64,000 nucleotides of DNA from assembly GCA_021835845.1 (NCBI GenBank), contig JAKBJU010000009.1, positions 1 to 64,000 on the forward strand, in the 5' to 3' direction. Shown in pieces: positions 8,145-36,018 of the stretch. The position numbers and the translations under genes are program-made. Source of the DNA: Pseudomonadota bacterium (GTDB taxonomy: Bacteria > Pseudomonadota > Gammaproteobacteria > Burkholderiales > JABEVD01). Each line of letters begins with the position of its first letter. Position 1 is the stretch's first letter. The notes beneath the pieces are model-generated. The model was given only the letters and a program-made list of their open reading frames with translations. It had not been told where the DNA came from and searched no databases.

Positions 8145-8302
8145 ATTTCGCCCCCTGGCGCACAAGAAGGATGGAACTGCCGCAGTGTATCAAGGAAATG
8201 ACCCGCATGAAATCGGTGGCTGCTTGCGTCGACAGGAACTTTCCTCAATACTGACTATCCAATTCCGGAACAATTGCATTTCTGACGCGAAGGGGAAAAA
8301 TA

Positions 8303-13388: not shown

Positions 13389-14107
13389 AGCTCCCCCCCT
13401 TTCAGATAAAGGCTCGCGACGACAACGATCCCGAACAGACAGGCGAACATCAGGGTGGCCCCCCTCCCTATGTCGTTGGCAGGATGAGGTTCATTGCTGC
13501 CTGATTGAAAGCCTTGCACCAGCTTGATCGCAGCCCAGCCCCAGAGCAGCCAGATGAAAAGGATGGCCGGTTCAGTGCTCGCCCCCTGCAGCAATCCCAG
13601 CATTGCGAAAAAGCCCGGAAAAGGCGGAGTGGCGACGGCTGCCAGGAGGGTCAGGACCAGCAGGCCGGAGAGCCTCGGGAAGCGGGTTGCGAGGCCGCCG
13701 GAAAGGCCTGCATAGGCAGCGCCGCAACGCTTCTCTATCGCCCCTGACAGCAGGAACAGCAGCGCCGAAGGCAGACTCAGCCAGAATGCCAGAATGTGCC
13801 TGTCGGATTCGCTCGATATCCAGACGAGCACAACGGCGGAAGAAGCCAGAAATCCCGCCCAGATGCCGAGATCCCGCACAGTCAAGAGGCGCAAGGCGTA
13901 GAAACCGGAGCTCGCAATCGACCATGCGACGAAGCCTTCAGGCACCGGCTGCTTTGCCGCATGCAGAACGAATATCCCGACCTGGGGCCACAAAAGCGTG
14001 AGCAGGAACCTGGCCAAAGGACTTCCCATCCTGGAGAGCAGGCCGTTCAGCAACATGCTGAACGGAAACAAGGGCAAGAACAGGGCGGCTGCCAGGATCT
14101 CGATCAT
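13385..14107 (-). CDS. Small membrane protein between dabB1 and dabA1
   Basis: 240 residues from ATG 14107, which overlaps the dabB1 stop (ATGA); a GTG two codons earlier is possible. About seven hydrophobic helices, including LFLPLFPFSMLLNGLL, FAWSIASSGFYALRLLTVRD-like and LLVLTLLAAVATPPFPGFFA. The PPFPGF motif resembles the discontinuous helix of NuoL/NuoM/Mrp-type antiporter subunits, so it may be a reduced proton-channel-like subunit that completes a shortened DabB. Its four-base overlaps on both sides argue for a fixed stoichiometric role in the DAB1 complex. I cannot name it. Confidence 0.7.
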   Translation of the reverse strand: MIEILAAALFLPLFPFSMLLNGLLSRMGSPLARFLLTLLWPQVGIFVLHAAKQPVPEGFVAWSIASSGFYALRLLTVRDLGIWAGFLASSAVVLVWISSESDRHILAFWLSLPSALLFLLSGAIEKRCGAAYAGLSGGLATRFPRLSGLLVLTLLAAVATPPFPGFFAMLGLLQGASTEPAILFIWLLWGWAAIKLVQGFQSGSNEPHPANDIGRGATLMFACLFGIVVVASLYLKGGEL

Positions 14108-15792
14108 AGCCACCTCGACCAGACATTCATGCGCCTGGACATCGAGAGCACTGCCTGGGCGAACAGGGCATAGACGTCTGCTGCGTAGAACTCACGAGAG
14201 ACCATGGAATACAGCGCCAGCCTTGCAGGGGAGGGATCCGCGCTGCGGGATCTGCCGCTCGCCGCTGCATAATAGGTTGCAAGCCAGCCCACCACGATCG
14301 TGACGGTCAATATGGCCACAAGGGCATCGAAGGTGGAAAGCGGAATGCTGGCCGCTCTATAGATCTGTTCCCTGATCGTTCTGTCCGGATACATGAACAG
14401 ATCGAAGGCGTGTTCGATCAGGGTATAGCCTGCCACGACGATGATCAGCGACAGGACGATCATGACCATCGTGCGCCACGGGTTTTCCGCCCGGAGGCGG
14501 TAGGTCGCGAAAAGCAGCTGTGCGCCTGTTGCCCAGCCGAAGAAAAGCAGGATGATCGCGCCCTGCTGGCCGACGAATTCTCCGCCCACCAGCCAGCGCG
14601 AAAGCCCCAGCACGAGGAATGGCACCACCACGGTCACGACGGCAGCGAGCATCCAGGGCAACCGGGAAGCGACCGGCTTGCGCTCGACGACAAAGGTGTA
14701 AACGTCGTCATGGGGAACGCCATCCTGCTTCCTGGCTTCTCCGATCATGCTCCCTGCGCCGAGAAAAAGCGTGCCTTTGAAAAGGCCATGCGCGATCAGA
14801 TGATAAATCGCCAGAGAGAAGGCACCGACGCCGCATTCCACGAACATGAATCCCATCTGCCCCATGGTCGAATAGCCCAGGGATTTCTTGATGTCGTTCT
14901 GGGTCAGCATCAGGATCGAACCCATCACGGCCGTGACCATCCCGACCGCAAATACCAGGTGCAGCACGCCGCCTGCATGGATGAATACGGGAGCGAAACG
15001 GTTGACGATGAAGCCGCCCGCATTGACGATCCCTGCATGCATCAGAGCTGACACCGGCGTCGGCCCTTCCATGGTATAGGGAAGCCAGGTGTGCAACGGA
15101 AACTGCGCCGAGCGCGCGAATGCGGCAAGCGCGACCAGAAGACCGACCGCAACAGGAAGGGACATGCCGAATACCGGATAGGCATCGGGGGTTGCGGCAA
15201 TGCGCTCGAACAGAGCGGGAAGCGAAAATGTTCCGTAGGCCTTGTAGAGCAGCACTGCGGCAAGGATCAGGGGAAGATCGCCGATTCGGTAGGTGAAGAA
15301 TGTCCAGAAGGCGTAGCGCTGAGCTGCGGGGCGCTCCAGATCATGGCCCAGCAGAAAATAAAGCAGCACGCCTACAAGATGCCATGCAATCAACAGCGTG
15401 ATGAGATCTCCTGCTGCCACCATCAGAAAAATGGTGCCAGTCATCAGGTCGAGCAGGGTATAGAATCGCGCATAGCCAGGTTCTTCCGCCATGTAGCGCA
15501 CGGCGTAGACATGCACCACGAGGCTGATGCCAGAAACTGCCAGTGCCATCACGCTCTCCAGGGGATCGAGATAGAGACTGCCCCAGGCCTCGCCTGACGA
15601 AAGCCATTGGGGATGGGGATTTGCAACATAAAGGACGAGCGAAGCCGCGCTCATGAAAAAGGCAATCGCACTCATGCCAACGCTCAGATGGGCCACGCTG
15701 CGCTGCGCCCTGAAGGAGATGAGCGTGATCAGCAGGGCTGAAAGCATAGGTACGGCCACGATGCACGAAGGCATCAGACCGCCGATGGACAA
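14104..15792 (-). CDS. dabB: DabB1, NuoL-like membrane subunit of DAB pump
   Basis: About 562 residues, proton-translocating antiporter (PF00361-type) fold with some 13 helices. Diagnostic segments: FARSAQFPLHTWLPYTMEGP, TPVSALMHAGIVNAGGF and LMLTQNDIKKSLGYSTMGQM. It could be misread as NADH dehydrogenase chain 5, but no other nuo genes are present and it is followed by dabA. Start choice: AAGGGAGG precedes TTG codons at 15798 and 15792; 15792 has the better spacing (10 bases); ATG 15774 is too far. DabB is thought to supply ion-motive force to DabA. Confidence 0.88.
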   Translation of the reverse strand: MSIGGLMPSCIVAVPMLSALLITLISFRAQRSVAHLSVGMSAIAFFMSAASLVLYVANPHPQWLSSGEAWGSLYLDPLESVMALAVSGISLVVHVYAVRYMAEEPGYARFYTLLDLMTGTIFLMVAAGDLITLLIAWHLVGVLLYFLLGHDLERPAAQRYAFWTFFTYRIGDLPLILAAVLLYKAYGTFSLPALFERIAATPDAYPVFGMSLPVAVGLLVALAAFARSAQFPLHTWLPYTMEGPTPVSALMHAGIVNAGGFIVNRFAPVFIHAGGVLHLVFAVGMVTAVMGSILMLTQNDIKKSLGYSTMGQMGFMFVECGVGAFSLAIYHLIAHGLFKGTLFLGAGSMIGEARKQDGVPHDDVYTFVVERKPVASRLPWMLAAVVTVVVPFLVLGLSRWLVGGEFVGQQGAIILLFFGWATGAQLLFATYRLRAENPWRTMVMIVLSLIIVVAGYTLIEHAFDLFMYPDRTIREQIYRAASIPLSTFDALVAILTVTIVVGWLATYYAAASGRSRSADPSPARLALYSMVSREFYAADVYALFAQAVLSMSRRMNVWSRWL

Positions 15793-15882
15793 TGTCAAAT
15801 TGCCTCCCTTAAGAATGACACGGTTTTGCGATCGGCTGGACGACAATCGCCGAATACAAGTTTAAGGAAGGCGAAGCAAAAT

Positions 15883-16657: not shown

Positions 16658-19168
16658 TCAGAGAGATACTGTAGCATGAAGTCCTGCGGATCGCTCCTCG
16701 AAAGCAGCAGTTGTCCAGCCAGAATCGGGATGCCATTTCGAAACCTGGCCCGAGGCGCCATCGATTTGAAACAGGTGAATCCAGGCATTCTCGACCAGAT
16801 TCTTCACGACTTCATGCCTGCCGATGATGTCTTCGATTGCTTCCCTGGGTGCTTCTATGAATACGCTCAGCCTGATCGGTTCGTGCACCCAACGCCTGCC
16901 GTCGTGCAGAGACTGCATGGGAAGCCCCACCCTCAGGTCTCCGCCGTTTCCTTCCAGAACGCCGATCGCCCCGCCCACGATATTGTGCAGCACCTTGTTT
17001 CCGCTCCCGAAATGCTGATTGTCGACGACCGAACCGTAGTACTGCATGTTGATCCAGTTTCCGACCACCATGGGCGCAGTCATGATCAGTTCGAGTATCT
17101 TGAAACCCCGGTCTTCTTTCCGGTCATATTCATGCAGGAAGGCGCGCCCGCCAAGATCCAATTCTGCCGTCCTCGATCGCGGCGCTGCGATGAATGCCGC
17201 GTTTCCTGCAAGCGCCCATTCGGGCCTGATTTCCGACCAGTCGCGGCTGCGGCGACGCACATCCGACTCCACCTCCCTGTCCGAGAGCCCCGAAACGCCA
17301 AGAAGAGCGGAGCGCTGCATGCGGGTCAGATCCCCCGCCTGTTCCAGCCATTGGCGAAGCTGCGCCAGGTCTTTGAGAAGACCATGAGGAACCCTTTCCG
17401 CCTCAAAGAGCTTCAGCTCGTCGGTAGTGGTATCGTGCAGGCCCGCGATGAACCAGGTGTCTTCGGGTATCGCGATGCCTCGCGCTTCGAGACCTCTGCG
17501 GACTTCCGGCTGGTTAAGCAGCGCCGCCACCACCCGTGCGCTCGCCTCTCCCGTCTGCCCTGCACAGGCGCCGCAATCGAGCCCGGTGGCATGCGGGTTG
17601 TTGGCAGTGCTGCTGCCGTGACCGGCGAGCAGCACCAGGCGGGCGAAATTCTCGGTCATGGACATGGCGCGCAGAATGCGCTCGGCATGCTCCACCCGGT
17701 CCCCTTCCGGCATTCCCGAAGCGGGCAGATCTCCCCGCGGGGCAAGAGATGGTCCGGTTCTCGTCGATTTATCCAGCCCCTGCCTCAAGGGATCCGGGAC
17801 GGGCCTGCTCCATCCGAAGCTGTCGGCAAGCAGCTTCAATGCGTAGAGAATGCCCGCAGACTCGACGAAAGAAAAGCAGGAAGAGGCTGAAAGCTTGAAG
17901 ATTTTCCATGCCTTGGAAATTCCGATGCGCATGCGGCGCCTCTTCTCTTCGGCAGCCTGATCTCCATCTCTGACTTCTTCGTAAATCCTGTAGGCAGGAT
18001 TGAAAATGACCGGGACATGGGAATTTCCGCAGCTTGCACCGAGCGGGACATATTCGATGAAAATGCCGAAGAATCCCGCGAACCCGATGGTCTGCACGGT
18101 GGGCGCGACGGTTTCGAGGGCTCGGCGAAACACCTCGGAACGCACGTCGATGCAGAAGGCTGCCTGGACTGATGGCCTGACTCCGACTTTCTTGATGCCA
18201 CCGGATGCGGCAAGCCCCGAGATGACCGAACGCTGGAATCCGATTTCCATGGCGTTGAGCATGATCCTGTCCAGTTCTGCCGCATTCCTCCTCTTGTCGG
18301 AAGGGGCGCGCATGCTTGATGCAAGCATGTCCCGCCACCTGGCGATCAGCGCAGCAGATCTTTTTTCCTCGAAAAGCAGGACGTCCCATGCCATGCGGAT
18401 GGCAAGCAGGTCGATCAGGGAATCATCCTGCCCGCCCCGCAATTCCGCCTGCCAGCGCAGATATCTGGCCCAGGATGCCCATCCTCCTATCCCGAGCAGG
18501 GAAGCGTGCAGGTAGCGCTCGATCGCATCCTCCGGAATGCCGAGTTGCGCAGCGGCCCAATCAATCGCGGCGCGTGGATCGGTTGGCAACTTGGCGACAT
18601 GCTTCTTGAACTGGGCGAGTCCCATCATGGCCGGGCTGTTGTCTATCGAGGCAGTCTTCAGCCAGGACTGATATAGGGTCATGCCTTTCCACGGATAGGC
18701 AAAAAGCGCCTGCCCGAGATCGAAATGGGCAGCGCAATGCAGGCTGATGCGCTCCATCACGAATCTCGTCCAGATTGCCCCTTCCACCTTGTCCAACACC
18801 TCGCTCACGGAGGCCATGCCCACATTCGGCACGGGCGCCGGAAGATAAAGTTCGTGCCTGACTTGCTCCAACGTCTTGCTGCTGCCGCAGGCACGGATCG
18901 CCTGCTCGATGTCCTGATCGGTGATCCGCCCGGACTCCATCTGCTCGAGATAATAGGAACGCGGCATGTAGAGGCTGGTGCCGATCACTCTGGCAAGCGT
19001 GTCCGAGGCATCCTGGAACGAATGATCCATCATCCCGAAGAAGGGATTGACAGCGACGAAGTGCTTGAGCGGCCAGAGTGGCGCAATTCTCGAGCAGGCC
19101 GCATCGATGCAATGATCGATTTCGGCACCGCCGGACCCGAAGGCGATTTCATTTCTTTCTGCGTGCAT
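16658..19168 (-). CDS. dabA: DabA2, second carbonic-anhydrase-like DAB subunit
   Basis: 836 residues from ATG 19168 (GGAG upstream), the shorter DabA type. Zinc ligands conserved: C339 and D341 in FCIDVRSE, H517 in GHGSSTANNP and C532 in LDCGACAG. Other family blocks: LKHFVAVNPFFGMMDHSFQD near the start and VVGNWINMQYYGSVVDNQHF near the end. It is clearly a paralogue of the 1037-residue copy but divergent, so the two pumps are not a recent duplication. Lies 10 bases after dabB2; divergent from a CbbR gene, which may control it. Confidence 0.92.
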   Translation of the reverse strand: MHAERNEIAFGSGGAEIDHCIDAACSRIAPLWPLKHFVAVNPFFGMMDHSFQDASDTLARVIGTSLYMPRSYYLEQMESGRITDQDIEQAIRACGSSKTLEQVRHELYLPAPVPNVGMASVSEVLDKVEGAIWTRFVMERISLHCAAHFDLGQALFAYPWKGMTLYQSWLKTASIDNSPAMMGLAQFKKHVAKLPTDPRAAIDWAAAQLGIPEDAIERYLHASLLGIGGWASWARYLRWQAELRGGQDDSLIDLLAIRMAWDVLLFEEKRSAALIARWRDMLASSMRAPSDKRRNAAELDRIMLNAMEIGFQRSVISGLAASGGIKKVGVRPSVQAAFCIDVRSEVFRRALETVAPTVQTIGFAGFFGIFIEYVPLGASCGNSHVPVIFNPAYRIYEEVRDGDQAAEEKRRRMRIGISKAWKIFKLSASSCFSFVESAGILYALKLLADSFGWSRPVPDPLRQGLDKSTRTGPSLAPRGDLPASGMPEGDRVEHAERILRAMSMTENFARLVLLAGHGSSTANNPHATGLDCGACAGQTGEASARVVAALLNQPEVRRGLEARGIAIPEDTWFIAGLHDTTTDELKLFEAERVPHGLLKDLAQLRQWLEQAGDLTRMQRSALLGVSGLSDREVESDVRRRSRDWSEIRPEWALAGNAAFIAAPRSRTAELDLGGRAFLHEYDRKEDRGFKILELIMTAPMVVGNWINMQYYGSVVDNQHFGSGNKVLHNIVGGAIGVLEGNGGDLRVGLPMQSLHDGRRWVHEPIRLSVFIEAPREAIEDIIGRHEVVKNLVENAWIHLFQIDGASGQVSKWHPDSGWTTAAFEERSAGLHATVSL

Positions 19169-19178
19169 GATGGGTCTC

Positions 19179-20777
19179 CTATGCTCTGATTTTTCGAGTA
19201 ACCGGCCAAAGTTTCTGCAGCATCCGCGTGATATAGACATCGACGTACATGCCGTTGTAGAGGTGAACATAGATCGCTTCCCATGCCCTTCCTTTCGCAT
19301 TCCTGAAAATATGCTGCAGCACCAGAAGGAAGATGAAGAAGATCACCACGAGCACCGCCAGGGTGTATTGAAACCGTCCAGTGGCGAGAACGGGCAGCGC
19401 GCTGTCCTGCATGAGCTTCGCAAAAACATCGTGCAGCGCGAAGTAGGACGCGCAGGTCAGTATGCTCATGCCCAGCGCGCGGAACAGAAACATTGGCGTT
19501 CTGTCCGTGTTTACCGCCTGCAGCATAAGCTGGGTGAGCGCAATTGCCACAATTGCCGTCGTTGCAAGTATCGCCGGCTGCTGACCGGGAGTCAGGCCGA
19601 ACAGGTAGGCAATCGCGCCTGTGATCAGGATGGAAAGGGAAAGGGAAAGGATCATCCTGCCCGGCCTGAATCCGGAAGGCGCGTAGGACATCTGCGGAGC
19701 TCGGAAAGCGTCCACCCCGCTGCCCGATGCGAGGAAGGCGTGCGCCTTGTAGAACGAATGGGCAACGAGATGCAACATGGCCAGGCTGTACAAACCCAGT
19801 CCGCATTCAAGCAGCATAAATCCCATCTGCGCTACCGTCGACCATGCCAACGAAACCTTGATGCTGGTCTGGGTCAGCATCACGAGCGAAGCCAGCGCCA
19901 GGGTGACGAGGCCGATTGCAGCCAGCATCCCCAGCGCTTCTGGCGAACGGGAAAGAATCGGGCTCATGCGGATCACCAGAAATGCCCCGGCATTGACGAT
20001 CCCTGCATGCAACAATGCGGAAACGGGAGTCGGCGCTTCGATCACCTGTATCAGCCATCCATGCAGGGGAAACTGGGCGGACTTCAGCGCTGCGCTCAGC
20101 ACAACCAGAAAAGCGGCCAGTCTCAAGGCAATCGGCAGGTTGCCCTGATAGCCGGCCATGACCCGAAAGATTTCCGAGAATTCGAAGGTATGCAGGCTCG
20201 ATCCGATCAGCACGATGGCTGCAACCAGGCTGAAATCCCCGATGCGACTGGCGACGAATTTCTTGTGTGCCGCAAGGACCGCAGCCGGCCGTTCTCCATA
20301 GAACATCAGCAGCTGATGCAAACAAAGACTGGTGGCAACCCATGCAGCCATGAACATGATCAGGTTGCCGGACACGATGAGCCCAAGGATCGAGGCAAGC
20401 GTCAGGCTCAGCCATTTGAAAAACCGGCCCTGGTCAGGCTCGCCCCGAAGATAGCGAATCGAATACCGGCTCACGATCATCCCCACGAATGACACAAGCA
20501 CCAGCAGGATCATCGTGACGCTGTTGTAGAACACGTCGATGGTCAGTTCGGTCGGCCCGAAGGGCAACTCGATGGCGCGTTGAGCAACAAGCCTGGCGGG
20601 CAAAGTTTCCCTGAAAACCGCCGCAAGAATGGATACCAGCAAGGCCGCCGTGGCAGCCCTGTAGCAAAGGCTTCCTGTCAATACCGGATTCCTGTTGACC
20701 CATCTGGTGGGCAGCATCCCGACCAGAATGAGAAGCATCGGTGCCAGCAGAACGGACAAGGACACATTGATCGACAT
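19179..20777 (-). CDS. dabB: DabB2, NuoL-like membrane subunit of second DAB pump
   Basis: 532 residues from ATG 20777 with AAGGAG seven bases upstream. Antiporter-like polytopic protein with ALKSAQFPLHGWLIQVIEAP, TPVSALLHAGIVNAGAFLVI and VMLTQTSIKVSLAWSTVAQM. First gene of dabB2-dabA2-cupin; the promoter region is shared with the divergent cbbR at 20905. Pairing with dabA2 excludes a complex I role. Confidence 0.9.
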   Translation of the reverse strand: MSINVSLSVLLAPMLLILVGMLPTRWVNRNPVLTGSLCYRAATAALLVSILAAVFRETLPARLVAQRAIELPFGPTELTIDVFYNSVTMILLVLVSFVGMIVSRYSIRYLRGEPDQGRFFKWLSLTLASILGLIVSGNLIMFMAAWVATSLCLHQLLMFYGERPAAVLAAHKKFVASRIGDFSLVAAIVLIGSSLHTFEFSEIFRVMAGYQGNLPIALRLAAFLVVLSAALKSAQFPLHGWLIQVIEAPTPVSALLHAGIVNAGAFLVIRMSPILSRSPEALGMLAAIGLVTLALASLVMLTQTSIKVSLAWSTVAQMGFMLLECGLGLYSLAMLHLVAHSFYKAHAFLASGSGVDAFRAPQMSYAPSGFRPGRMILSLSLSILITGAIAYLFGLTPGQQPAILATTAIVAIALTQLMLQAVNTDRTPMFLFRALGMSILTCASYFALHDVFAKLMQDSALPVLATGRFQYTLAVLVVIFFIFLLVLQHIFRNAKGRAWEAIYVHLYNGMYVDVYITRMLQKLWPVTRKIRA

Positions 20778-20856
20778 GATATTCTCCTTCAGGAATGATT
20801 CGTTCAATTTCTGAAGTCGATTCTATGGAAGGCATGGAAAAAATAAAAATGAATTG

Positions 20857-23802: not shown

Positions 23803-24287
23803 GCCTGCTTCGAAAGCGCCATCTGCATCACCCTTTCCGCCTGCCGCTCGCGGAAGCCGGAAAGGGCATCGCCGATTGCAGGATCATTGTTGGCCAGCAT
23901 CGCTACCGCATACAGGGCAGCATTGGCAGCACCTGCTTCCCCTATGGCGAAAGTCGCGACGGGGATCCCTTTCGGCATCTGCACGATGGAAAGCAACGAA
24001 TCCAGACCCTGGAGATGCCTGCTCGGTATCGGAACCCCCAATATGGGGATCGTGGTTTTCGATGCGAGCATGCCGGGAAGATGGGCCGCACCTCCCGCCC
24101 CGGCGATGATCGCCTTCAATCCGCGCGTGCGCGCGCTTGCCGCATATTCGAAAAGCAGGTCGGGAGTGCGGTGCGCGGACACCACCCTGGCTTCGTGAGG
24201 GATGCCGAATTCCTCCAGGATGGAGGCTGCAGCCTGCATCACCGGCCAGTCCGAATCCGACCCCATGACAAGACCTATATCAGCCAT
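23799..24287 (-). CDS. purE: PurE, N5-CAIR mutase
   Basis: 162 residues from ATG 24287 (GGGGGAG upstream), the normal class I length. Motifs: [23 protein letters not shown] (with the catalytic His), [13 protein letters not shown] and ILGVPIPS. Converts N5-CAIR, the PurK product, to CAIR. Its start lies inside the last codons of the aldolase-like gene (8-base overlap), tying it translationally to the carboxysome operon. Confidence 0.95.
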
Positions 24288-25485
24288 GATGCACTCCCCC
24301 TTTGACTTGCCATCTCTTCTCCGAATTCCGGTTTCCGGCATCGGCGGAATGCGCGATCGAAACAGGAAGCTGATCTGCGCCCGTCTCCTGATCGGCTATG
24401 GTGTAGTCGCCCACGATCCGGTCAGCGGTTGCAGGCCTCAGGAGCTTTTCCTCGAATGCGGCCTGATCCGGATGCTTCCTGAAGTTTTCCAGGGCTGCGG
24501 GGGATGAGAGCAGAACCAGCCAGCAATGCCTGTAGCGCGCGCTTTTTTCCGTCACGCTCCCGGCCACGACTGCCCGAACCCCCGGAATGCCGCCAAGAAT
24601 CCGCTGTCCTTCCTTCATCGCAAAGCGCAGTTCCTCTTCCGAGCATAAGGGGGCATTGAAAGCCACGATATGCTCGACGTTGAGCCATATCCTGGACTGG
24701 GCGAGAATTTCGGCTGCCCTTCCTGCTGCGCCGAGAAGCAGCATGCATTTCCCCACTTCCTCTTCTGCCGCCTGCCTGAGTCCCGAAAGAAGCGACTGCA
24801 GGTCCGATTTGCCGCGGATCAGCTTCTGAGCAACCTCTTCAAGGGGAATCTTGCACCCCACCTTGGCCACGCCGAGGGCCGAGAGCTTGCGATACTGCTC
24901 ATCAGACAATTCGCTTCCCGCTTCGGCGGAAAGGGGGATATCGACTGCCTCCCCGATCTCCCTAAGCCTTGCCCAGTCGAGCTTTACCTTGCCGCCAGGA
25001 ATTTTGTTGCTGAAGGAAACTTCGAGATAGTCGATCCCCGTCTTCTCGGAAAAACCCTTTGCTTCGGCGACATGGGTAGGCCCTTCTCCGCCCAGCCCCC
25101 CCCCGCAGGCGATGCCGCAGGTTTTGGCCATGGCGCAAGTTTTCCTCGTCAGTTCGATGTGATCCCCCAGCGGAAGACTGGAGCCGTCGACCGATATCCC
25201 GTTGCATCCGATTCTTGCCGCGTGCAGTGCGGAATCGGAATCGTATCCCCATCTGCAGTGAAGCGTAACGGGAACACTGGCGCGGCGGGCAGCCATTTCG
25301 GCTGCAGCCATGAGCAGTTCGCAATTCTCTCCCTCGGGAATGTCGAGAATGACAGGCGCCCTGTGCTGCTCTGCGGCACTCACGATTGCCTGGAGCACAT
25401 CCAGGCTGGAGACCTCGAATGCGCCGACGGCATATCCGTTCTGCCTGGCATGGTTCAGCATGTCCTTCATATCGATTATCGGCAC
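24280..25485 (-). CDS. Class II aldolase-like pseudoenzyme fused to a Dabb domain
   Basis: 401 residues from a GTG start at 25485 (AAGGAG upstream). Residues 1-265 align with class II fructose-bisphosphate/tagatose aldolases: [53 protein letters not shown] and [20 protein letters not shown]. Yet LHLDHG has become LHCRWG (catalytic Asp to Arg, zinc His to Trp), the following Glu site is CGGGLG, and the later two zinc His positions read FSNKIPGG and LSAEAGSE. Thus no metal site remains. Residues 275-370 ([20 protein letters not shown] through [12 protein letters not shown] and [15 protein letters not shown]) form a Dabb-type alpha/beta barrel. Ten bases after cbbO. Probably a binding or regulatory protein in CO2 fixation; not a standard CbbA. 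Confidence 0.75.
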
Positions 25486-25495: not shown

Positions 25496-27808
25496 TTATC
25501 TCGTCAGGCTCATGTAAAGGGTGGGAAGCTTCTCCGGCAACCTGGAAACATGGTCGAGCACCATGTAATTTCTGAAGCCGAATATCCTTGAAACATAATC
25601 GTCGGCATGGGGATCCAGGCTCAGGCAGAAGGTGGTGATCCCCTGTCTGGCAAGTTCCTCCACGGCCTTTTTCGTATCATGGCGAAGATACTGGGGGTCC
25701 CTCACGTCGTTGTCTGCAGGCTCTCCGTCGGTCAGCAGGAATATCATCTTCCTCTGGCTCGCCCTTCTCGAAAGGAGCGATCCCGCATGACGGAGCGCCG
25801 TGCCCATCCTCGTGGAGAGCTTTCCCGTCATGCCCGCCAGCCTTGCCTTAACCTTCTCGTCGTAAGGCCCGTCGAAATCCTTGAACCTGAAATATTCCAC
25901 CTCGTGCCTGCCGTTGGAATCGAAGCCATGGATGGCGAAAGGATCTCCGATTCTGGAGAGCGCGTCAGCCAGCAGTGCCGCAGCTTCTCTCGCGAGATCG
26001 AGCACCTTCACTTCTCCGTCGCCATTTCTGACAGGATCGTTGGTCGACTCGGAAAGGTCGATCAGCAGCAGAACCGAAAGATCCCTGATCTGGAGGCGGG
26101 TCCTGATCCCAATCCTGGGGTCGGGCTGCATCCCCATGCGCAGGTCCACTGCGGCATGGATTGCGGCATTGATGTCGATGTCGTCCCCATCCTCCACCTT
26201 GCGCTGCCTGATGACGCCCTGCGGCTGAATCGCCTCTATGAGATATTTGAGCTTGCTGATCAGCGGTTTGTGCTTTTCTATCAGCTCGTCGATTTTTCCC
26301 GGGTCGCCGTATTTGGGGCGCTTCTCGAGCAGCGTCGCCCAGTTCGGCCGCTCGAGCTGGGTCTGGTAATCCCATTCCCTGTAATGGACCGGGGAGGCGG
26401 CAGGCTCGCGCCCTTCCCGCTCGTTGAAGCTCACCCCGTCGTCGTCGTAAAGCTCGGTGGGCAGGACCCATATCTCTTCTGCATCTTCCCCGGCAAATTC
26501 GACATCGACGGCATTGATCATTTCCATCAGGCTGACGTACTTTCTCACCTGGGGGCGCATTCCTGTCAGCAGGAGCATTTCGTCTTCGTCAGCCTCAGCC
26601 CAGAGATGGCGATTGTCGTCCCGGTACGGGCAGCTCGCGAAATCCGTTCTGGGATTGAAGGGGATGCCGGCCGCGATTTTCGCAAGTTCGAGACCGATTT
26701 CCCTTGCGAGCGTCTTGTCTTCGAGCCTCTTCACGGCGTCAGAAAAGGCTTTTCTCGCCGCTTCGACGAGGGGATGGTCATCCTTGTATGCTTCATCCAG
26801 AAGCGCACGCGCGATGCCATCGAGCAATGCGCCAAAGCGCTCGTCCCCGGGCGCTCTCGGCGCAAGAAGCCCCAGCCAGATCGATCTCAGCCCGGGAAAG
26901 GCGCGGCAAGCCAGGGATTCCACTCTGGCATCCTCTATCGCACCGATCAGGGCGCGCTCGACCGGACTCAAGGATTCAGGATCTGCATCCCGGCCGGAAT
27001 GGACGATGTGTGCTGCAGCATGGGCTGCCGCTGCGCGATATATTTCCAGCCCCGATATGTCTCCTCTATTGTCGAATGCATCCGGAAGATGGATGAAATA
27101 CGATTCGACATAGGGTCTGTAGCCCTCGCGCGTCTCGAAGTCCCCCGATGTCGGGCGAAGGAAGAAATCCCTTCCCCAAAGCGCCCTGAGGTACATGATC
27201 AGCCTGCGCTGCACGTCGACGAAGAGTACGCCGCGCTGCTCCTTCTTCATGACGGCAAGGGAATCCTCGCTTTCAAGTCCGAAATAGCTGGCCTGGTTTT
27301 CGAAATTGCTGCGATGAGCGGAAGCTCCCCACATCGCCCAGCGCCTGAGGCCGCCGAGGGTCAGATGCGCGAGCAGCACGTCCAGCTTCTCGAGCATCGG
27401 GCGCAAAGCTCTGGGCACCTGGGAAAGCAGTACATCCAACAGCGCCAGATAAGCCCTGAACAATTCGAGCTCGCCCAGCCTGGCAGCCGCCGTCGGGGCC
27501 GTGGAAAAAAGCAGGACGAGCACGCCCGCGCTCGTCTTCGAATACATCCTGATGGCTGCAGAGAACAGGTCGGCTACCGCCTGCTCTCCGATTTCCTTGG
27601 CGACCTGAGGGGCGCTCTCGATGAAGGATTCCACGAGGTCTGTTCCCCGCCCGAGCGCCTTGAGGCTGGCCGCCGCCCTGACATAGGCGTCTAGCCCCCG
27701 GGGCGAGAAGGCCCTTGCCGCATCCTTCCAGGCGGCCTCGAGGACAGTGCGAGGTCCCTCGCCCAGTTCCTCGAGCAGGTCTTCATATTCAGCCAGCTGA
27801 ATCGCCAT
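25496..27808 (-). CDS. cbbO: CbbO, VWA-domain adaptor of the RuBisCO activase
   Basis: 770 residues. Long helical N-terminus and a C-terminal von Willebrand A domain with the MIDAS motif DLSESTND (D-x-S-x-S) in LLIDLSES, followed by FLLTDGEPADNDVRDPQYLR. Matches CbbO/NorD proteins; position in the carboxysome operon selects CbbO. In the CbbQO machine CbbO recognises RuBisCO through its VWA domain and bridges it to the CbbQ hexamer. ATG at 27808 follows the small mcdB-like ORF by five bases. Confidence 0.9.
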   Translation of the reverse strand: MAIQLAEYEDLLEELGEGPRTVLEAAWKDAARAFSPRGLDAYVRAAASLKALGRGTDLVESFIESAPQVAKEIGEQAVADLFSAAIRMYSKTSAGVLVLLFSTAPTAAARLGELELFRAYLALLDVLLSQVPRALRPMLEKLDVLLAHLTLGGLRRWAMWGASAHRSNFENQASYFGLESEDSLAVMKKEQRGVLFVDVQRRLIMYLRALWGRDFFLRPTSGDFETREGYRPYVESYFIHLPDAFDNRGDISGLEIYRAAAAHAAAHIVHSGRDADPESLSPVERALIGAIEDARVESLACRAFPGLRSIWLGLLAPRAPGDERFGALLDGIARALLDEAYKDDHPLVEAARKAFSDAVKRLEDKTLAREIGLELAKIAAGIPFNPRTDFASCPYRDDNRHLWAEADEDEMLLLTGMRPQVRKYVSLMEMINAVDVEFAGEDAEEIWVLPTELYDDDGVSFNEREGREPAASPVHYREWDYQTQLERPNWATLLEKRPKYGDPGKIDELIEKHKPLISKLKYLIEAIQPQGVIRQRKVEDGDDIDINAAIHAAVDLRMGMQPDPRIGIRTRLQIRDLSVLLLIDLSESTNDPVRNGDGEVKVLDLAREAAALLADALSRIGDPFAIHGFDSNGRHEVEYFRFKDFDGPYDEKVKARLAGMTGKLSTRMGTALRHAGSLLSRRASQRKMIFLLTDGEPADNDVRDPQYLRHDTKKAVEELARQGITTFCLSLDPHADDYVSRIFGFRNYMVLDHVSRLPEKLPTLYMSLTR

Positions 27809-27813: not shown

Positions 27814-27981
27814 TCAGTCCGGCCAGACTCGGCTTGGATGGAGCTGCATGTCGGAGGCATTCGGGTCGGTTTCGCGAACCACGGCCTTTTTCGGCGAGCC
27901 GCTTCTGGGCTGAGCCTTTGCTCTTGCAGCGGGCTGCTTGGGTTGAATGCTTGCCTTAAGCTTTTCTTCCATTTTGCTCAT
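27814..27981 (-). CDS. Candidate alpha-McdB, 55-residue partner of McdA
   Basis: Too short for ordinary ORF calling. ATG 27981 overlaps the mcdA stop by four bases (ATGA) and TGA ends at 27814, five bases before cbbO. The product begins MSKMEEKLKASIQPKQPAAR, is rich in K, A, P, Q and S (predicted disordered), and ends SDMQLHPSRVWPD with a Trp third from the end. Alpha-McdB proteins are known as small, disordered products encoded right after mcdA with an invariant Trp near the C-terminus. Position and this Trp are the evidence; 55 residues is short for the family. If correct, it links McdA to the carboxysome, probably through CsoS2. Confidence 0.65.
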   Translation of the reverse strand: MSKMEEKLKASIQPKQPAARAKAQPRSGSPKKAVVRETDPNASDMQLHPSRVWPD

Positions 27982-28592
27982 TTGACGGATACCTCCTTCA
28001 GGATGGATTCGATCTCTACAACTGCCTCTCGCCCTCTCGCCCCCATCTGGTAGACGCTTTTTCCTTCGAGAAGCGCAAGCCTGTAGACAGCCCTTCTCCT
28101 GACTGCCGTGTTCAGCAGGGGGAGAGGCTGCTGGTCAAGCACTTTCGCCATTGCATCAGACAATGCGCTACGCTTCTCGGCCTGGTTCTGCACGAGCCAT
28201 GCCTTGAGAGCGGGATTGAAGCGCCTTGCCCTGTCGATGGCGGATGCTGCATCATGCGTCGCCCATAGATCGAGCGGAGAGGGAATGACGGGAAGCAGCG
28301 CCATTTCCACGGATTCGAGCACCTTTCCGGTGAGGTTCCAGTCGACCGAAGGGGGGCAATCGACCACCACATGATCGAAGCTGGCCCTGGCATCCTGCAG
28401 ATGCCCCAGACCTGACAGCACGCTGAGACTGGAAATGTCAGCCGCCCATTCTGCCCAGTGCGCAAGTGCGCCCTGGGGATCGACATCGATCAGGGCAACC
28501 CTGCCCCGCTTTGCGAGGCCTGCGGCGATATTCAATGCCAGCGTCGATTTCCCGCACCCGCCCTTGAGATTGGCCAGCGCAATGCTCGCCAT
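27978..28592 (-). CDS. mcdA: McdA, ParA-type ATPase that positions carboxysomes
   Basis: 204 residues from ATG 28592. Deviant Walker A KGGCGKST (10-17) with the signature first Lys of the ParA/MinD group, then LIDVDPQGALAHW and VVVDCPPS (Walker B region). Much shorter than plasmid ParA and without an N-terminal HTH. Location between acRAF and the McdB candidate identifies it as the alpha-carboxysome McdA, which binds the nucleoid when ATP-bound and forms gradients that space carboxysomes. Gap of five bases from acRAF. Confidence 0.88.
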   Translation of the reverse strand: MASIALANLKGGCGKSTLALNIAAGLAKRGRVALIDVDPQGALAHWAEWAADISSLSVLSGLGHLQDARASFDHVVVDCPPSVDWNLTGKVLESVEMALLPVIPSPLDLWATHDAASAIDRARRFNPALKAWLVQNQAEKRSALSDAMAKVLDQQPLPLLNTAVRRRAVYRLALLEGKSVYQMGARGREAVVEIESILKEVSVK

Positions 28593-28597: not shown

Positions 28598-28825
28598 TCA
28601 GCCCTGGCTCAGTGCGTCCACCCCGGCCGCGAAAGCGCCTCGATCGGGATTGTCCAGGGCGATGCTGACATTGGCATGGGTCTTTCCGAAATTGAGGTCG
28701 GGATAGTACCCCTGCTCCTTCGAATATTCCGCCAGCCTGTCCAGAAAGGTCCGCGTTTCCCCGTAGGAAGCGAATTCGTAGCGCCGAGTCATGGAAGACT
28801 GGCCGGTTTCCCATCCATTGCTCAT
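28598..28825 (-). CDS. acRAF, pterin-dehydratase-like RuBisCO assembly factor
   Basis: 75 residues from ATG 28825 (GGAG eight bases upstream); ATG 28831, which overlaps the previous stop, is the alternative. Pterin-4a-carbinolamine-dehydratase-like fold: TRRYEFASYGETRTFLDRLA then GYYPDLNFGKTHANVSIALD. True dehydratases use an E-x-H-H-P motif, but here the equivalent segment reads GYYPDLNFG, so catalysis is unlikely. In alpha-carboxysome operons this protein, acRAF, helps form the RuBisCO L8 core. Confidence 0.85.
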   Translation of the reverse strand: MSNGWETGQSSMTRRYEFASYGETRTFLDRLAEYSKEQGYYPDLNFGKTHANVSIALDNPDRGAFAAGVDALSQG

Positions 28826-29268: not shown

Positions 29269-29607
29269 TCAGCTCTGCTCCATCGCGACTTCGGCATCCC
29301 TTCCGCCTCCGCCGGATTTCGCGGAAGTGGGCAGGATGTTTTCCACTTCGCTGTGAACCCTCGCGATGATGTGCGCAGCGACAAGACCGTCGCCCACGCG
29401 CTCGCACGCGTCAGCCCCGGCCCTCACTGCCGCGTTGACAGCGCCCGTCTCGCCGCGGACCAGCACAGTCACGTATCCGCCGCCGACAAACTGGCGGCCT
29501 ACCAGGCGAACTTCCGCTGCTTTGGTCATCGCGTCAGCCGCTTCGATCGCGGGCACGAGACCCCTCGTTTCAATCATGCCAAGGGCAATTCCAGTCACTT
29601 CAGCCAT
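29269..29607 (-). CDS. csoS1: CsoS1 hexameric shell protein with C-terminal extension
   Basis: 112 residues, BMC-H domain: [40 protein letters not shown] and [20 protein letters not shown]. The first 92 residues equal those of the two other copies; the tail [19 protein letters not shown] is an extra 15 residues, as in CsoS1B of Halothiobacillus. CsoS1 hexamers tile the carboxysome facets; a central pore passes bicarbonate and sugar phosphates. Third and most distal of the csoS1 genes. Confidence 0.92.
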
Positions 29608-29637
29608 TTTCTTCTCCCTATCGATTCAAGAACTGCT

Positions 29638-29931
29638 TCAGGCGGGCGCCTTGGGCAGGATGTTTTCCACTTCGCTGTGAACCCTCGCGATGATGTGCGC
29701 AGCGACAAGACCGTCGCCCACGCGCTCGCACGCGTCGGCCCCGGCCCTCACTGCCGCGTTGACAGCGCCCGTCTCGCCGCGGACCAGCACAGTCACGTAT
29801 CCGCCGCCGACAAACTGGCGGCCTACCAGGCGAACTTCCGCTGCTTTGGTCATCGCGTCAGCCGCTTCGATCGCGGGCACGAGACCCCTCGTTTCAATCA
29901 TGCCAAGGGCAATTCCAGTCACTTCAGCCAT
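29638..29931 (-). CDS. csoS1: CsoS1 hexameric shell protein (middle copy)
   Basis: 97 residues, a minimal BMC-H protein. It is identical in sequence to the copy at 29962-30255, and both end ENILPKAPA. Facet-forming shell hexamer. The 30 bases before its start repeat those before the distal copy, so the whole unit was duplicated. Confidence 0.93.
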
Positions 29932-29961
29932 TTTCTTCTCCCTATCGATTCAAGAACTGCT

Positions 29962-30255
29962 TCAGGCGGGCGCCTTGGGCAGGATGTTTTCCACTTCGCT
30001 GTGAACCCTCGCGATGATGTGCGCAGCGACAAGACCGTCGCCCACGCGCTCGCACGCGTCGGCCCCGGCCCTCACTGCCGCGTTGACAGCGCCCGTCTCG
30101 CCGCGGACCAGCACAGTCACGTATCCGCCGCCGACAAACTGGCGGCCTACCAGGCGAACTTCCGCTGCTTTGGTCATCGCGTCAGCCGCTTCGATCGCGG
30201 GCACGAGACCCCTCGTTTCAATCATGCCAAGGGCAATTCCAGTCACTTCAGCCAT
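29962..30255 (-). CDS. csoS1: CsoS1 hexameric shell protein (first copy)
   Basis: 97 residues, identical to the middle copy. It is the first of three csoS1 genes after csoS4B and has its own distinct leader (GGAGAG site in the 38-base gap). Same shell role as the others. Confidence 0.93.
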
Positions 30256-30293
30256 GCTTCTCTCCTTTACAGAAATGAATCAAAAAACAACTA

Positions 30294-30545
30294 TCAAACA
30301 GCTTCTTCCCACTCATCGATGATCCCCGCTATGGTGAGATCGGTGAGCAGTTTCGGATCCCCGGAAGCGTAGCGCCCGGCAGAACCGCTTACCGTGAACA
30401 CCCATTTCCCTTCCGGTACGCCTACCGGGTCGCAAGCCACGCTGAGCGCCCCTTTGGCGTCTGTCAGGACACGCAGGGAGATGTTTTTCAGGCCCTCCAC
30501 CCTGCGGGTCGCCACCAGGTCGGATTTGACCTTCATGATTTCCAC
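30294..30545 (-). CDS. csoS4B: CsoS4B pentameric vertex protein
   Basis: 83 residues, BMC-P (EutN/CcmL) family: MKVKSDLVATRRVEGLKNIS, ACDPVGVPEGKWVFTVSGS and LTIAGIIDEWEE. Pentamers cap the vertices of the carboxysome. One base separates it from csoS4A. Confidence 0.92.
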   Translation of the reverse strand: MEIMKVKSDLVATRRVEGLKNISLRVLTDAKGALSVACDPVGVPEGKWVFTVSGSAGRYASGDPKLLTDLTIAGIIDEWEEAV

Positions 30546-30546
30546 G

Positions 30547-30798
30547 TCAGTCTCCGTTCCAGTGATCGATGATCCCCACGATCGTCAGATCGGAAGGAAA
30601 TTCCTTGCTTCCCGCCGCCTCCCGCGCTGCAGAAGAGCCGACGCAAATCACCCAGTCTCCGGGGATGCATCCGATCGGATCCACCGCAACCTGTCTCGCT
30701 CCGCCTGCCTTTTCCCTGACCACGAGCAGCGGCCTGTGGCCGAGATCGGCAATGCGATTGGTCGAAACCAGCGTCTTTTCAACCTGCATGATCTTCAT
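30547..30798 (-). CDS. csoS4A: CsoS4A pentameric vertex protein
   Basis: 83 residues from ATG 30798. BMC-P fold: MKIMQVEKTLVSTNRIADLG, AVDPIGCIPGDWVICVGSSA and LTIVGIIDHW. The start lies inside the end of csoSCA (20-base overlap), so the two are coupled. Paralogue of the following csoS4B. Confidence 0.92.
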   Translation of the reverse strand: MKIMQVEKTLVSTNRIADLGHRPLLVVREKAGGARQVAVDPIGCIPGDWVICVGSSAAREAAGSKEFPSDLTIVGIIDHWNGD

Positions 30799-32305
30799 CA
30801 ATGATCTCCTCAATCATGCTTCCCGCAGGCATATCCTGAACGGTCAGGTGGCAGGCCAGCAGGCCTGCGGCCTCAAGGTCCGCATATCTCGACCGGATTG
30901 CCTCCTCGACCCCTCTAGTCCTGCTCACCGCGCGCGCCCTTGAACCGGGAACCCTTGCGTCATACCTGAAATGAATGGCGATCGGCACGGGCAATCCGCG
31001 CTTTCCCATCAGGTGCCTGAAAATCTTGATGCCGATATCCATGTCCGACAACCCCTCCTCGAGGGTCTGGAGGTGCGCATAGTAGGCAACGTTGCGCATC
31101 TGCACTTCCTCGAATCCGTCGCCGACGCTGATGTAGCGCTCGGCGTGGCCGATATCCGGATAGCGTCCGCCGTAGTATTCGGCCACATATTCGATCTGCG
31201 AGAGATTGTTGATCAGGAGGTTTGCGACCAGCCTCCTCATGCCCTCGTGCGGCCTGGATGCTCCGGCATCCAGGATCGCCTGGTGAACCGCTATCCTCGC
31301 CTCGTTTTCGCCATAGCCCAGGGAGGCCGCATAGAGCGCAGCGTTGTCGACATACCGGCTTGCCGAGAGATTCCCTTCCTCGTCAGGCACATGGACGCGA
31401 ATCGCATCCGTATCCGTATCCACGCCGATCAGAAGGATGTCGGTCCCTGCCCCGCAGCAGAACGAATTCTCTATTGCCTGCCTGAATTCAAGAAGCCGCC
31501 GCAGTCCCGCATCGATCGCCGCACTGTCGTCGCTTCCATGCGCAGCGCACCCTTCATGATGCGGCCTGGAAGAACTGAAGTGATAGACGGCAATCTTCAG
31601 ATAGCGCGTCCCGGCCTCCGCAAAATTGGGCACCCCTTCCCGGTACCGGCTGAGTTCCACGGCCATCCACTGCCTGACATCCGTCTCGATGTCGAACATC
31701 GCGCCTGCATAAGCCTTGCGCCTGATGAAGGGCGTGCTGGGCAGGCGCAGGATGTAAGGCAGCAACCCCTTCAGGCGACCGTCCGCGCAGGGACTGATGT
31801 CAACTGCGTGAAACCCGCAATCCAGGAAGAAACTGTGCAGATCCTGCCAGGAGCCGTTCTTGCTCCGGTAATCGGAAGCATATTCCTCCGCGGAAAGAAG
31901 CAGGGCTTGGAACACGCAGCGTGAATAGAGCGCTTTCACGTCGAGGCCGTTCGACCAGGCATTTTCCAGGATATCCTCCGGCAATGCGTATCCGAGCTGC
32001 TGCCGGGCCAAGAGCTGTGCACGTTCCACGAAATCCGTATGGTGCTGCAGGGCCGAGATCGCTTTCAGCAGTGGCACGATTGCATCGAACCGTCCCTTCA
32101 CTGCCTCTTCCCGGGCGTTCAGCCTGGCATTCTCGCCCCTGTCTGCGAGCGCATGACGGCATACCCGCTCGGGTAGCGTGGCGCAGGCAGGGTGGGGGGG
32201 CACCCCCTCCGGCACAGGCAAGGGCCGATGGGCGGCCCCCAGTCCGAAAGGGGCAACCTGCCTGGTCTGGCGCGCTCTCAGTGCGTAGGCATTGCGGGTA
32301 TTCAT
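30779..32305 (-). CDS. csoSCA: CsoSCA, carboxysomal carbonic anhydrase
   Basis: 508 residues, the usual size. The zinc site and catalytic dyad fall at the same numbers known in the Halothiobacillus enzyme: C173 and D175 in SPCADGRLKG, H242 in YHFSSS and C253 in EGCAAHG. The N-terminal 60 residues are basic and disordered (TRNAYALRARQTRQVAPFG), the part that tethers the enzyme to RuBisCO. It converts bicarbonate to CO2 inside the shell. One base after csoS2. Confidence 0.95.
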   Translation of the reverse strand: MNTRNAYALRARQTRQVAPFGLGAAHRPLPVPEGVPPHPACATLPERVCRHALADRGENARLNAREEAVKGRFDAIVPLLKAISALQHHTDFVERAQLLARQQLGYALPEDILENAWSNGLDVKALYSRCVFQALLLSAEEYASDYRSKNGSWQDLHSFFLDCGFHAVDISPCADGRLKGLLPYILRLPSTPFIRRKAYAGAMFDIETDVRQWMAVELSRYREGVPNFAEAGTRYLKIAVYHFSSSRPHHEGCAAHGSDDSAAIDAGLRRLLEFRQAIENSFCCGAGTDILLIGVDTDTDAIRVHVPDEEGNLSASRYVDNAALYAASLGYGENEARIAVHQAILDAGASRPHEGMRRLVANLLINNLSQIEYVAEYYGGRYPDIGHAERYISVGDGFEEVQMRNVAYYAHLQTLEEGLSDMDIGIKIFRHLMGKRGLPVPIAIHFRYDARVPGSRARAVSRTRGVEEAIRSRYADLEAAGLLACHLTVQDMPAGSMIEEIIDEDHAG

Positions 32306-32306
32306 G

Positions 32307-34199
32307 CTATCCCCTCGCCCCCCCCGAGACCGTGATCATGGCGCCTTTTCCGGTGTTGCCGCTGCTTCCTGTCACTTTCGCCGACTGAATCTCCGGGCGC
32401 TCGATCTCCATGTTGGCGCGAGCCCCTGAAGCCATCTTGCGATTCTCTCCGCGCTGTGTCGGGTTGCGGCCCTGCGACCACATGCCTTCCGTGCCGGTAA
32501 TCCTGCCGCCTCTTGCCCAGTCGTCTCCGGTAATGCGCGTACTCTCCCTGCCTTCCCCGGTGACCTTTTTGGGAATCTGGACGGGCTCGACAGGCGCTTC
32601 GTCGCGATAGCGGAATTCAGGGGTGCCCGAAACCAGACCGCCAGCCCTGTCGCCAGGACCCGTGATGCGCTCGGCGCTGCCGTACCGCGTTCCCGTCACG
32701 CGCCCCTGGGCCTGGCGAGCCGGACTCACTATGCTGAACTCGGCTGATGCAGGCTCGAATTCCGGCAGCTTCGCAACAGGCTCCCTGGGAACGAAGCGGC
32801 TCGACTGCGCCGCCACTCGAGCCGATTGCGCCGCATGACGGCAGCCGCAATCGCCCTGGTTCGCATAGGGCGTACCGCTGATGGCAAGCTTGCCGCTTTC
32901 GCCCCCCGTCACCCTGCCCGTTCCCTCCAGCGCCGTTCCGGAAACGGCATAGCCTTTTCCGTGACCGGCCCCGGATGAAGCGGACGATTCCTGGCCGCTG
33001 TAATTGTCGTTTCCGGTGACGAGGCGGCAGCCAATGCCCTCGTCACCGGTCGGCTTTGGGCCGGGAGTTGCCATGACGCCAGTGATCCTCTGCCCGCTGC
33101 GGCTCCGCGACTCGGACACTTTCGAAGGCGCAGCAGCAGGACGGCTGTTGCAGAGCGATACGAACTGCTCGTTTGAGAGATATTCCGATCCGGAAACCTG
33201 GATGCATTCCCCAGCTTCGTCTCCCGTCACCTTCACGGAGCGCCCGACTTCCGTCCCTGTCACAGGCCTGCCCGCAACGGTATGGGTCAGCGCGACCTTT
33301 GCAGGACCGTTGATCGTCATTCTGGCAACGCCGGCATCGGAATACTGTGCGCCGGTAATGGCGCGGGAAGAGCCGGGTTCGGTGCCCGTCACGCGGGATG
33401 CACGCGCTTCGTCGGAACCGGTAACCGTCATCCCCTTGACTTGGGTCGAGCCCACAACCACCTTTTCGGGCCGCTCCGCGAATCCCCTGCGCTGGCAGAA
33501 TTCATCGAAGCGCTCGGCACCCAGATATTCCGTGCCAGTCACTGTCTTGCAGCTCCCGGATTCGTCCCCTGTCACCCTGACGGATCTGCCGATTTGGCTG
33601 CCGGTGACAAAACCGCCGCGGCTTGTCTCGCTCACGCCGCTCTTGGGCTCGGCAGGTTCTGGGCGCGTACCGCAGAACTGGTCGAACTGCTCGGACCCGA
33701 CATATTCGGTTCCGGTCACCGTTCTGCATGTTCCTGCCTCGTTTCCGGTCACCTGAAAAGTGCGCTCCACCTGGCTGCCGCTCACGAGACTGCCGGAAAG
33801 GGTCGTGCCGAATTCCACCTTTTTGGGACCGGGACGAATCCTCCCCGAGGGACGGCAGCCCGGCGCATCCCCCCTGCCCATGCATTGCCTCGCACGGTGC
33901 TGCCTGGCGGCTGTCCGCCCGTTCTGCATTTCCACCTGAGGCGCGCCCTCTTCGGGCTGCGGTTCCGGCCTGGCATATTCCACCTCCGCGGCCACCGTGG
34001 CGGCTGCAGGCGGAAACGACAAGTTCTTGCCGCCTTTTGCCAGCATTGCCCGCCTTGCCCGAGCCAGTTCGTTCCCGCTCAATCCTGCCAGCGCCGAATC
34101 CGACTTCGAAACGGCTCCTGCGCCGCCTTTTGAGATGGCGCGGCGCCTCGCCATGGCAGAATTGCGCGCCTCGCTGCTTGAAGTTTGTCCAGACATCAT
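32307..34199 (-). CDS. csoS2: CsoS2, disordered carboxysome scaffold (short form)
   Basis: 630 residues (ATG 34199, or the adjacent ATG 34196). N-terminal basic repeats that bind RuBisCO: MARRRAISKGGAGA, ARARRAMLAKGGKN and a weaker AARQHRARQCMGRGD. Middle repeats of V-T-G-x-E...T-V-T-G-T-E-Y...F-C: about four, three ending in Cys and one without. The C-terminal region from about 400 ends SGNTGKGAMITVSGGARG, the conserved shell-binding tail. At 630 residues it is smaller than the 869 of Halothiobacillus, from fewer N and M repeats. I saw no clear slippery heptamer, so frameshifted isoforms were not established. Confidence 0.9.
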   Translation of the reverse strand: MMSGQTSSSEARNSAMARRRAISKGGAGAVSKSDSALAGLSGNELARARRAMLAKGGKNLSFPPAAATVAAEVEYARPEPQPEEGAPQVEMQNGRTAARQHRARQCMGRGDAPGCRPSGRIRPGPKKVEFGTTLSGSLVSGSQVERTFQVTGNEAGTCRTVTGTEYVGSEQFDQFCGTRPEPAEPKSGVSETSRGGFVTGSQIGRSVRVTGDESGSCKTVTGTEYLGAERFDEFCQRRGFAERPEKVVVGSTQVKGMTVTGSDEARASRVTGTEPGSSRAITGAQYSDAGVARMTINGPAKVALTHTVAGRPVTGTEVGRSVKVTGDEAGECIQVSGSEYLSNEQFVSLCNSRPAAAPSKVSESRSRSGQRITGVMATPGPKPTGDEGIGCRLVTGNDNYSGQESSASSGAGHGKGYAVSGTALEGTGRVTGGESGKLAISGTPYANQGDCGCRHAAQSARVAAQSSRFVPREPVAKLPEFEPASAEFSIVSPARQAQGRVTGTRYGSAERITGPGDRAGGLVSGTPEFRYRDEAPVEPVQIPKKVTGEGRESTRITGDDWARGGRITGTEGMWSQGRNPTQRGENRKMASGARANMEIERPEIQSAKVTGSSGNTGKGAMITVSGGARG

Positions 34200-34242
34200 T
34201 CTGTCCTCATGCTCGTCTCTCGATTGACCGGAAATCCGGTCT

Positions 34243-34575
34243 TCAGGCTCCCCTGTAAACCACGAAGGCCGTACCCTGGCACTGCGAGTAGTTGTCGTAG
34301 CCGATCAGCCGGACATGGTGACCGGGGTGCTCGCGATGGCAGGCCTCGAGTTCGGAGAGAATGCGGTCCACGCTCTGTTCGCCGAACATCGGGAGCTTCC
34401 ACATGTACCAGTAGTAGCTGAAGGAGCGTTGCGGTTCGACGTGCTCGACCGCAGGATTCCAACCCTGATTGACGATATATTTGATCTGCTCCCTGATCTC
34501 CTCTGGGGACAGCGCCGGCAGATAGGAGAAAGTTTCGTATTTGATTGCCTGCTTGTAATCCTGTACGTCAGCCAT
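34243..34575 (-). CDS. cbbS: CbbS, RuBisCO small subunit (form IA)
   Basis: 110 residues: [39 protein letters not shown] and [20 protein letters not shown]. Typical carboxysomal form IA small subunit, with a short N-terminus lacking the six-residue insertion of the non-carboxysomal IAq type as far as I can judge by eye. Twenty-four bases after cbbL and 43 before csoS2. Confidence 0.95.
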
Positions 34576-34599
34576 GATTCAATTCCTTATAAAATGGTC

Positions 34600-36018
34600 T
34601 CAGCGGTTCTGCACATCGAGCTTGTCGACGGTGTCGAACTCGAATTTGATCTCTTTCCATGTTTCCATGGCGATCTTCAATTCCGGGCTGCTGGCTGCCG
34701 CCTTGGTGAGAATTTCCTTGCCTTCGCGCTCGAGGTTGCGACCGCGGTTCCTGGCTTCCACGCAGGCTTCCAACGCAACGCGGTTGGCGGCAGCACCCGC
34801 TGCATTGCCCCAGGGGTGGCCGAGGGTACCGCCGCCGAACTGGAGAACAGAGTCGTCGCCGAAGATGGTCACCAGCGCAGGCATGTGCCAGACGTGAATG
34901 CCGCCGGATGCCACTGCGAACGCCCCGGGCATGGAACCCCAGTCCTGGTCGAAGAAGATCCCGCGCGAGCGGTCTTCGGGGATGTACGATTCACGCAGCA
35001 GGTCGATCCAGCCCAGCGTTGCCGCACGGTCGCCTTCGAGCTTGCCGACGACGGTTCCAGTATGCAGGTGGTCGCCGCCGGAAAGACGCAGGATCTTGGT
35101 CAGCACGCGGAAGTGGATCCCGTGGTGCGGATTGCGATCGAGCACGGCGTGCATGGCGCGGTGGATGTGCAGCAGCAGGCCGTTCTTGCGGCACCAGCGC
35201 GCAAGACCCGTATTCGCCGTGAAGCCGCCCGTGATGTAGTCGTGCATGATGATGGGCATCTTGAGTTCCTTCGCGAACTCGGCGCGCTCGTACATCTCTT
35301 CCGGTGAAGGAGCGGTGACGTTCAGGTAATGGCCCTTGCGCTCTCCAGTCTGCGCCTCCGCATTGTGGATGGCGTCGGCAACGAACAGGAAGCGGTCCCT
35401 CCAGCGCATGAATGGCTGGCTGTTGACGTTCTCGTCATCCTTGGTAAAATCGAGACCGCCCCTCAGACATTCGTAGACAGCACGGCCGTAGTTCTTGGCG
35501 GAAAGGCCGAGCTTGGGCTTGATGGTGCAGCCCAGCATCGGGCGGCCATACTTGTTCATCTTGTCGCGCTCGACCTGGATGCCGTGGGGAGGACCATTGC
35601 AGGTCTTGACATAGTGCAGCGGGAAGCGCACGTCTTCCAGCCTCAGCGCGCGAACCGCCTTGAAGCCGAACACGTTGCCCACCAGGGAGGTGAACACGTT
35701 GACCACGGAGCCCTCCTCGAACAGGTCGATGGGATAGGCGATGAAGGCATAGAAGCAGGTGTCGTCCCCGGGAACGTCCTCGATCGCATAGGCGCGGCCC
35801 TTGTAGTAGTCGAGGTCGGTCAGCAGGTCGGTCCAGACGGTGGTCCAGGTTCCGGTGGAGGATTCAGCAGCAACAGCCGCAGCGGCTTCTTCGCGATCCA
35901 CTCCCGGCTGAGGGGTGATCTTGAAGCAAGCCAGTATGTCCGAGTCCAAGGGAACATAGTCCGGCGCCCAGTATGTTTGCCGGTATTCCTTGACACCCGC
36001 TTGGTAGGTTTTTGCCAT
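34600..36018 (-). CDS. cbbL: CbbL, RuBisCO large subunit (form IA)
   Basis: 472 residues. Starts [20 protein letters not shown] and holds active-site blocks [20 protein letters not shown], the carbamylated Lys in [17 protein letters not shown], the [20 protein letters not shown] phosphate loop and loop 6-type elements. Carboxylates ribulose bisphosphate. First gene of the carboxysome operon; the promoter lies in the 161-base gap to the divergent cbbR. Confidence 0.97.

Follow-up and report, generated by a model that had tools for sequence, protein, structure and literature searches.

The window analysed here, the whole stretch of 64,000 nucleotides, carries an alpha-carboxysome locus in which a very small open reading frame (ORF) is wedged between mcdA and a cbbO-like gene. 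The cso cluster, comprising cbbL, cbbS, csoS2, csoSCA, csoS4A, csoS4B and three csoS1 genes (29269–36018, minus strand; Pfam and NCBIfam matches), lies upstream of this ORF on the same strand, together with a bacterioferritin-like gene. Two of the csoS1 copies (29638–29931 and 29962–30255, minus strand) have equal NCBIfam scores of 188.2 bits and may encode identical proteins. An acRAF-like, pterin dehydratase-like protein is encoded at 28598–28792 (minus strand; Pfam Pterin_4a, a weak match under the cut-off with E 0.0017) and adjoins mcdA (27978–28592, minus strand). The latter encodes a ParA-type ATPase of 204 amino acids counted from its ATG (Pfam AAA_31, E 5e-16). Its Walker A motif, KGGCGKS, includes the signature lysine, and its best NCBIfam match is ParA_partition with 166.6 bits, under the model cut-off of 180.

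The small ORF, mcdB (27814–27981, minus strand), encodes the 55-residue product MSKMEEKLKASIQPKQPAARAKAQPRSGSPKKAVVRETDPNASDMQLHPSRVWPD. It lies directly downstream of mcdA, a position that counts among the membership features of alpha-McdB type 1, and its ATG and the mcdA stop codon share four bases (ATGA, 27978–27981). A 5-base gap separates the mcdB stop from the start of the cbbO-like ORF (25496–27808, minus strand). These coordinates agree with a sequence-only reading of this DNA, which had described a small ORF that begins in the mcdA stop and finishes just before cbbO. The name cbbO is based on a Pfam VWA domain and on position, with no NCBIfam match at E ≤ 0.01. A strong ribosome-binding site, GAAGGAGG (27992–27999, minus strand), is placed 10 bases ahead of the mcdB ATG and is the same in the loci L014, L015 and L016. 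Lys, Ala and Pro each account for 13% of the product and Ser for 11%, the middle part being rich in these four residues. No Pfam or NCBIfam model matches the product at E ≤ 0.01, and thus no family name can be taken from those two libraries.

Terminal motifs and type of the McdB

According to Basalla et al. (2024; PMC11321042), alpha-McdBs have WPD as an invariant element and R(V/I)WPD as their C-terminal consensus; in H. neapolitanus, the final 10 residues of McdB are sufficient to reach carboxysomes. The 55-residue protein fits this consensus with an RVWPD end that contains the invariant Trp. Its last 10 residues, QLHPSRVWPD (27817–27846, minus strand), are therefore annotated as a putative carboxysome-binding peptide, a role taken from H. 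neapolitanus. At the other end, a 2025 preprint (PMC12204374) places the McdA-binding region of H. neapolitanus McdB in the first 20, N-terminal residues and reports on K7, L8 and I12, as well as on K13A, which had an intermediate effect on McdA binding, and K17A, which had little effect. By analogy, residues 1–12 (27946–27981, minus strand) represent the candidate McdA-binding peptide of the protein described here. Matched by number and not by alignment, M4, K7, L8 and I12 are present in it, whereas K13 and K17 of H. neapolitanus are replaced by Q13 and P17. Five of its first 20 residues are Lys or Arg, and M1, S2, K7, L8 and S11 are invariant across 13 aligned sequences. An AlphaFold2 model based on these 13 sequences is of low confidence (mean pLDDT 66, pTM 0.18); it predicts a helix at residues 3–12 and no secondary structure after residue 12, which agrees with the descriptions of a helical N-terminus and of disorder in H. 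neapolitanus. With the peptide limits as defined in that organism, 25 residues remain between the 20-residue and the 10-residue peptide.

Similar to the alpha-McdB type 1 of H. neapolitanus, as portrayed in PMC11321042 and PMC12204374, the protein is encoded behind mcdA near a cso operon and combines a lysine-bearing N-terminal helix with K7, L8 and I12, a putatively disordered middle and a WPD end. It differs in lacking K13 and K17 and in length: with Trp94 followed by two more residues, the H. neapolitanus protein has 96 amino acids, compared to 55 here. The mcdA-adjacent McdBs labelled Guyparkeria/Halothiobacillus (L026–L028, L030, L032 and L033) likewise resemble the 55-residue protein in their MSKLEDKLSASVKS start and LHPxRVWPD end, but are 112–125 amino acids long, and nearly all of the extra length is linker.

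To place the gene in a broader context, 99 csoSCA-centred loci (23 named loci, 9 and 67 others, the 67 including seven of the nine regions of one set) were scanned for ORFs ending in WPD; a second, partial csoSCA match of genome G184 and a second, weak match of genome G057 were left out. Selection relied on the WPD end and on a position behind an ORF with the pattern [KR]GGxGK[ST], and start codons were chosen by nearness to the mcdA stop. A WPD ORF was found behind an mcdA-like ORF in 66 of the 99 loci and only elsewhere in 21, while 12 had neither. With at least four duplicates, the 66 loci yielded 62 distinct proteins, or 63 with that of the window. Since the WPD end served as a selection criterion, its conservation in this set is by construction, and the R[VI]WPD end of 61 of the 63 distinct proteins has to be read with WPD itself selected. 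KL or KM near the N-terminus, a feature that was free of selection, occurs in 57 of the 63, and 57 of the 66 mcdA-adjacent cases show the −4 overlap with mcdA. Among the 21 loci without a recognised adjacent mcdA, at least L044 and L053 look like type 1 cases whose mcdA escaped the search pattern.

Four loci (L019, L022, L069 and L102) have two WPD ORFs each, one behind mcdA and the other an orphan with a different N-terminus; in L019 they lie at 5277–5528 (plus strand) and 7988–8230 (minus strand), and in L022 at 13114–13524 (plus strand) and 16858–17097 (minus strand). This fits the arrangement of type 1 together with type 2 known from a review (PMC8262871).

In the definition of that review, type 1 is encoded behind mcdA and has a charged N-terminus, whereas type 2 is an orphan in the cso operon without a charged N-terminus; a WPD end is found in type 2 as well as in the 55-residue protein. 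The latter could be proposed to be a type 2 McdB that binds carboxysomes and not McdA: it is short, its gene sits in the cso operon, and the type 2-like ORFs of the survey include one of 52 (L104) and one of 53 amino acids (L103). It has, however, both elements that type 2 lacks by this definition, namely the adjacent mcdA and a lysine-bearing N-terminus, MSKMEEKLKASI. We have rejected the assignment to type 2 on these grounds and regard it as very improbable.

Conservation within the genus

csoSCA is present in four of nine genomes of the genus, the window's own included. The same four encode mcdA at 87% identity or more and mcdB with E < 1e-16. Further weak matches to mcdB in G002, G004 and G006 (E 0.02–0.4) each contain internal stops and are not credible. 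The orthologues in the three congeners comprise 55, 54 and 52 amino acids and align with 84, 67 and 75% identity, respectively; they have the gene position, the ribosome-binding site, identical in all four, and both termini in common. The six pairs among the four mcdB genes give dN/dS values of 0.19–0.33, rough estimates from Nei-Gojobori counts on 52–55 codons, versus 0.12–0.16 for mcdA. Conservation in close relatives, which the sequence-only reading had proposed as a check, is thus borne out by orthologues with both termini in three congeners.

The same data bear on the idea that mcdB is a decayed, truncated gene in the course of losing its function. Its product is among the shorter McdBs, and with 2.2 Mb the cells may have undergone genome reduction; yet the two functional ends have remained intact, all four carboxysome-bearing congeners share the short length and the dN/dS values speak for constraint. 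Given this conservation and these values, we have discarded decay as highly unlikely.

A true McdB elsewhere in the genome had been named beforehand as a further finding that would count against the identification. A protein search of the genome at E ≤ 10 returned the 55-residue McdB and no second one. At the DNA level, the pattern R[VI]WPD-stop has three matches in the 2.2 Mb genome versus one for a reversed control pattern, and the motif by itself is therefore weak evidence. Both other matches were dropped: the one labelled C26 lies in another reading frame of a longer same-strand ORF, which by eye we take to be HIT-like, and the one labelled C31 belongs to a 17-codon open stretch without an ATG between two longer ORFs. 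As the assembly is 95.55% complete, a second copy could lie in the missing part.

That mcdB is an untranslated chance ORF, a notion to which its mere 55 codons and the two chance occurrences of the RVWPD-stop pattern elsewhere in the genome might give rise, can be dismissed as having next to no probability in view of the ribosome-binding site, the translational overlap, the presence in the same four congeners as csoSCA and the purifying selection. Genomic context and conservation in congeners, along with the recurrence of its N-terminal motif in mcdA-adjacent ORFs from many families, place the ORF beyond chance; it is a real, conserved gene.

Length and putative function

Taken together, we are highly confident that the gene encodes a short form of the type 1 alpha-McdB, which acts as cargo adaptor in the McdAB system for positioning carboxysomes. 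The sequence-only reading had arrived at the same identity, and it is strengthened by the adjoining mcdA, the R(V/I)WPD end, the lysine-bearing N-terminal helix, the conservation and the co-occurrence with csoSCA in four of nine genomes. The gene represents an additional short member of the known McdB family and otherwise confirms the known picture.

The accompanying claim that the protein appears shorter than described examples did not hold. Published alpha-McdBs span 51–169 residues according to a passage of PMC11321042 that makes no distinction between type 1 and type 2, and 55 residues fall inside this range; moreover, mcdA-adjacent McdBs of 52–54 amino acids occur in our survey. The stronger wording, shorter than any described McdB, was rejected on the basis of the same range. 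Without the window's protein, the 62 distinct surveyed proteins measure 52–125 amino acids with a median of 76. The five shortest of all 63 have 52, 53, 54, 55 and 55 amino acids. Four of these five belong to this genus and the 53-residue protein (L069) to another family. Short McdBs thus characterise the genus, but they are not confined to it and remain within the published lengths. Among the papers listed by a literature search on McdB linker length and on the shortest McdB, none names that question.

The 55-residue protein is a natural near-minimal McdB, and its mode of action can be modeled on that of H. neapolitanus, from which its two binding steps and its role in positioning are transferred by analogy. 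The predicted N-terminal helix would attach to McdA dimers that carry ATP and sit on the nucleoid, causing them to detach from DNA, and the C-terminal RVWPD peptide would bind the carboxysome. About 25 presumably disordered residues would link the two binding ends, and carboxysomes would follow McdA gradients over the nucleoid in the manner of a Brownian ratchet. It is conceivable, albeit rather unlikely, that the McdB of this genus acts as a simple two-ended tether with its link of about 25 residues and lacks the ability to form condensates that has been ascribed to longer McdBs.

The length of McdB varies more than twofold in the survey (52–125 amino acids), and the 55-residue form adds a conserved near-minimal case. 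Such short natural McdBs could be used to test the need for the disordered linker and for the attributed phase separation in carboxysome positioning. For finding very short McdBs, genomic context (a position behind mcdA and a WPD end) is better suited than family models.

Further observations

When viral contigs were searched with McdA as the query, a single locus with 28% identity was returned. In the window, the ORF at 24280–25485 (minus strand) encodes a fusion of a class II aldolase domain (residues 5–256) with a Dabb stress-responsive A/B barrel domain (residues 270–362). A CbbQ_C match at 9111–9362, one of four in the whole genome, is about 16 kb away from the cbbO-like gene and does not adjoin it. 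In addition, the window contains two ORFs similar to NADH-quinone oxidoreductase subunit L (14104–15846 and 19179–20807, both minus strand), each with a large ORF nearby (10275–13388 and 16658–19300, respectively); we take these ORFs and their large neighbours to be perhaps two DAB-type inorganic carbon transporters.
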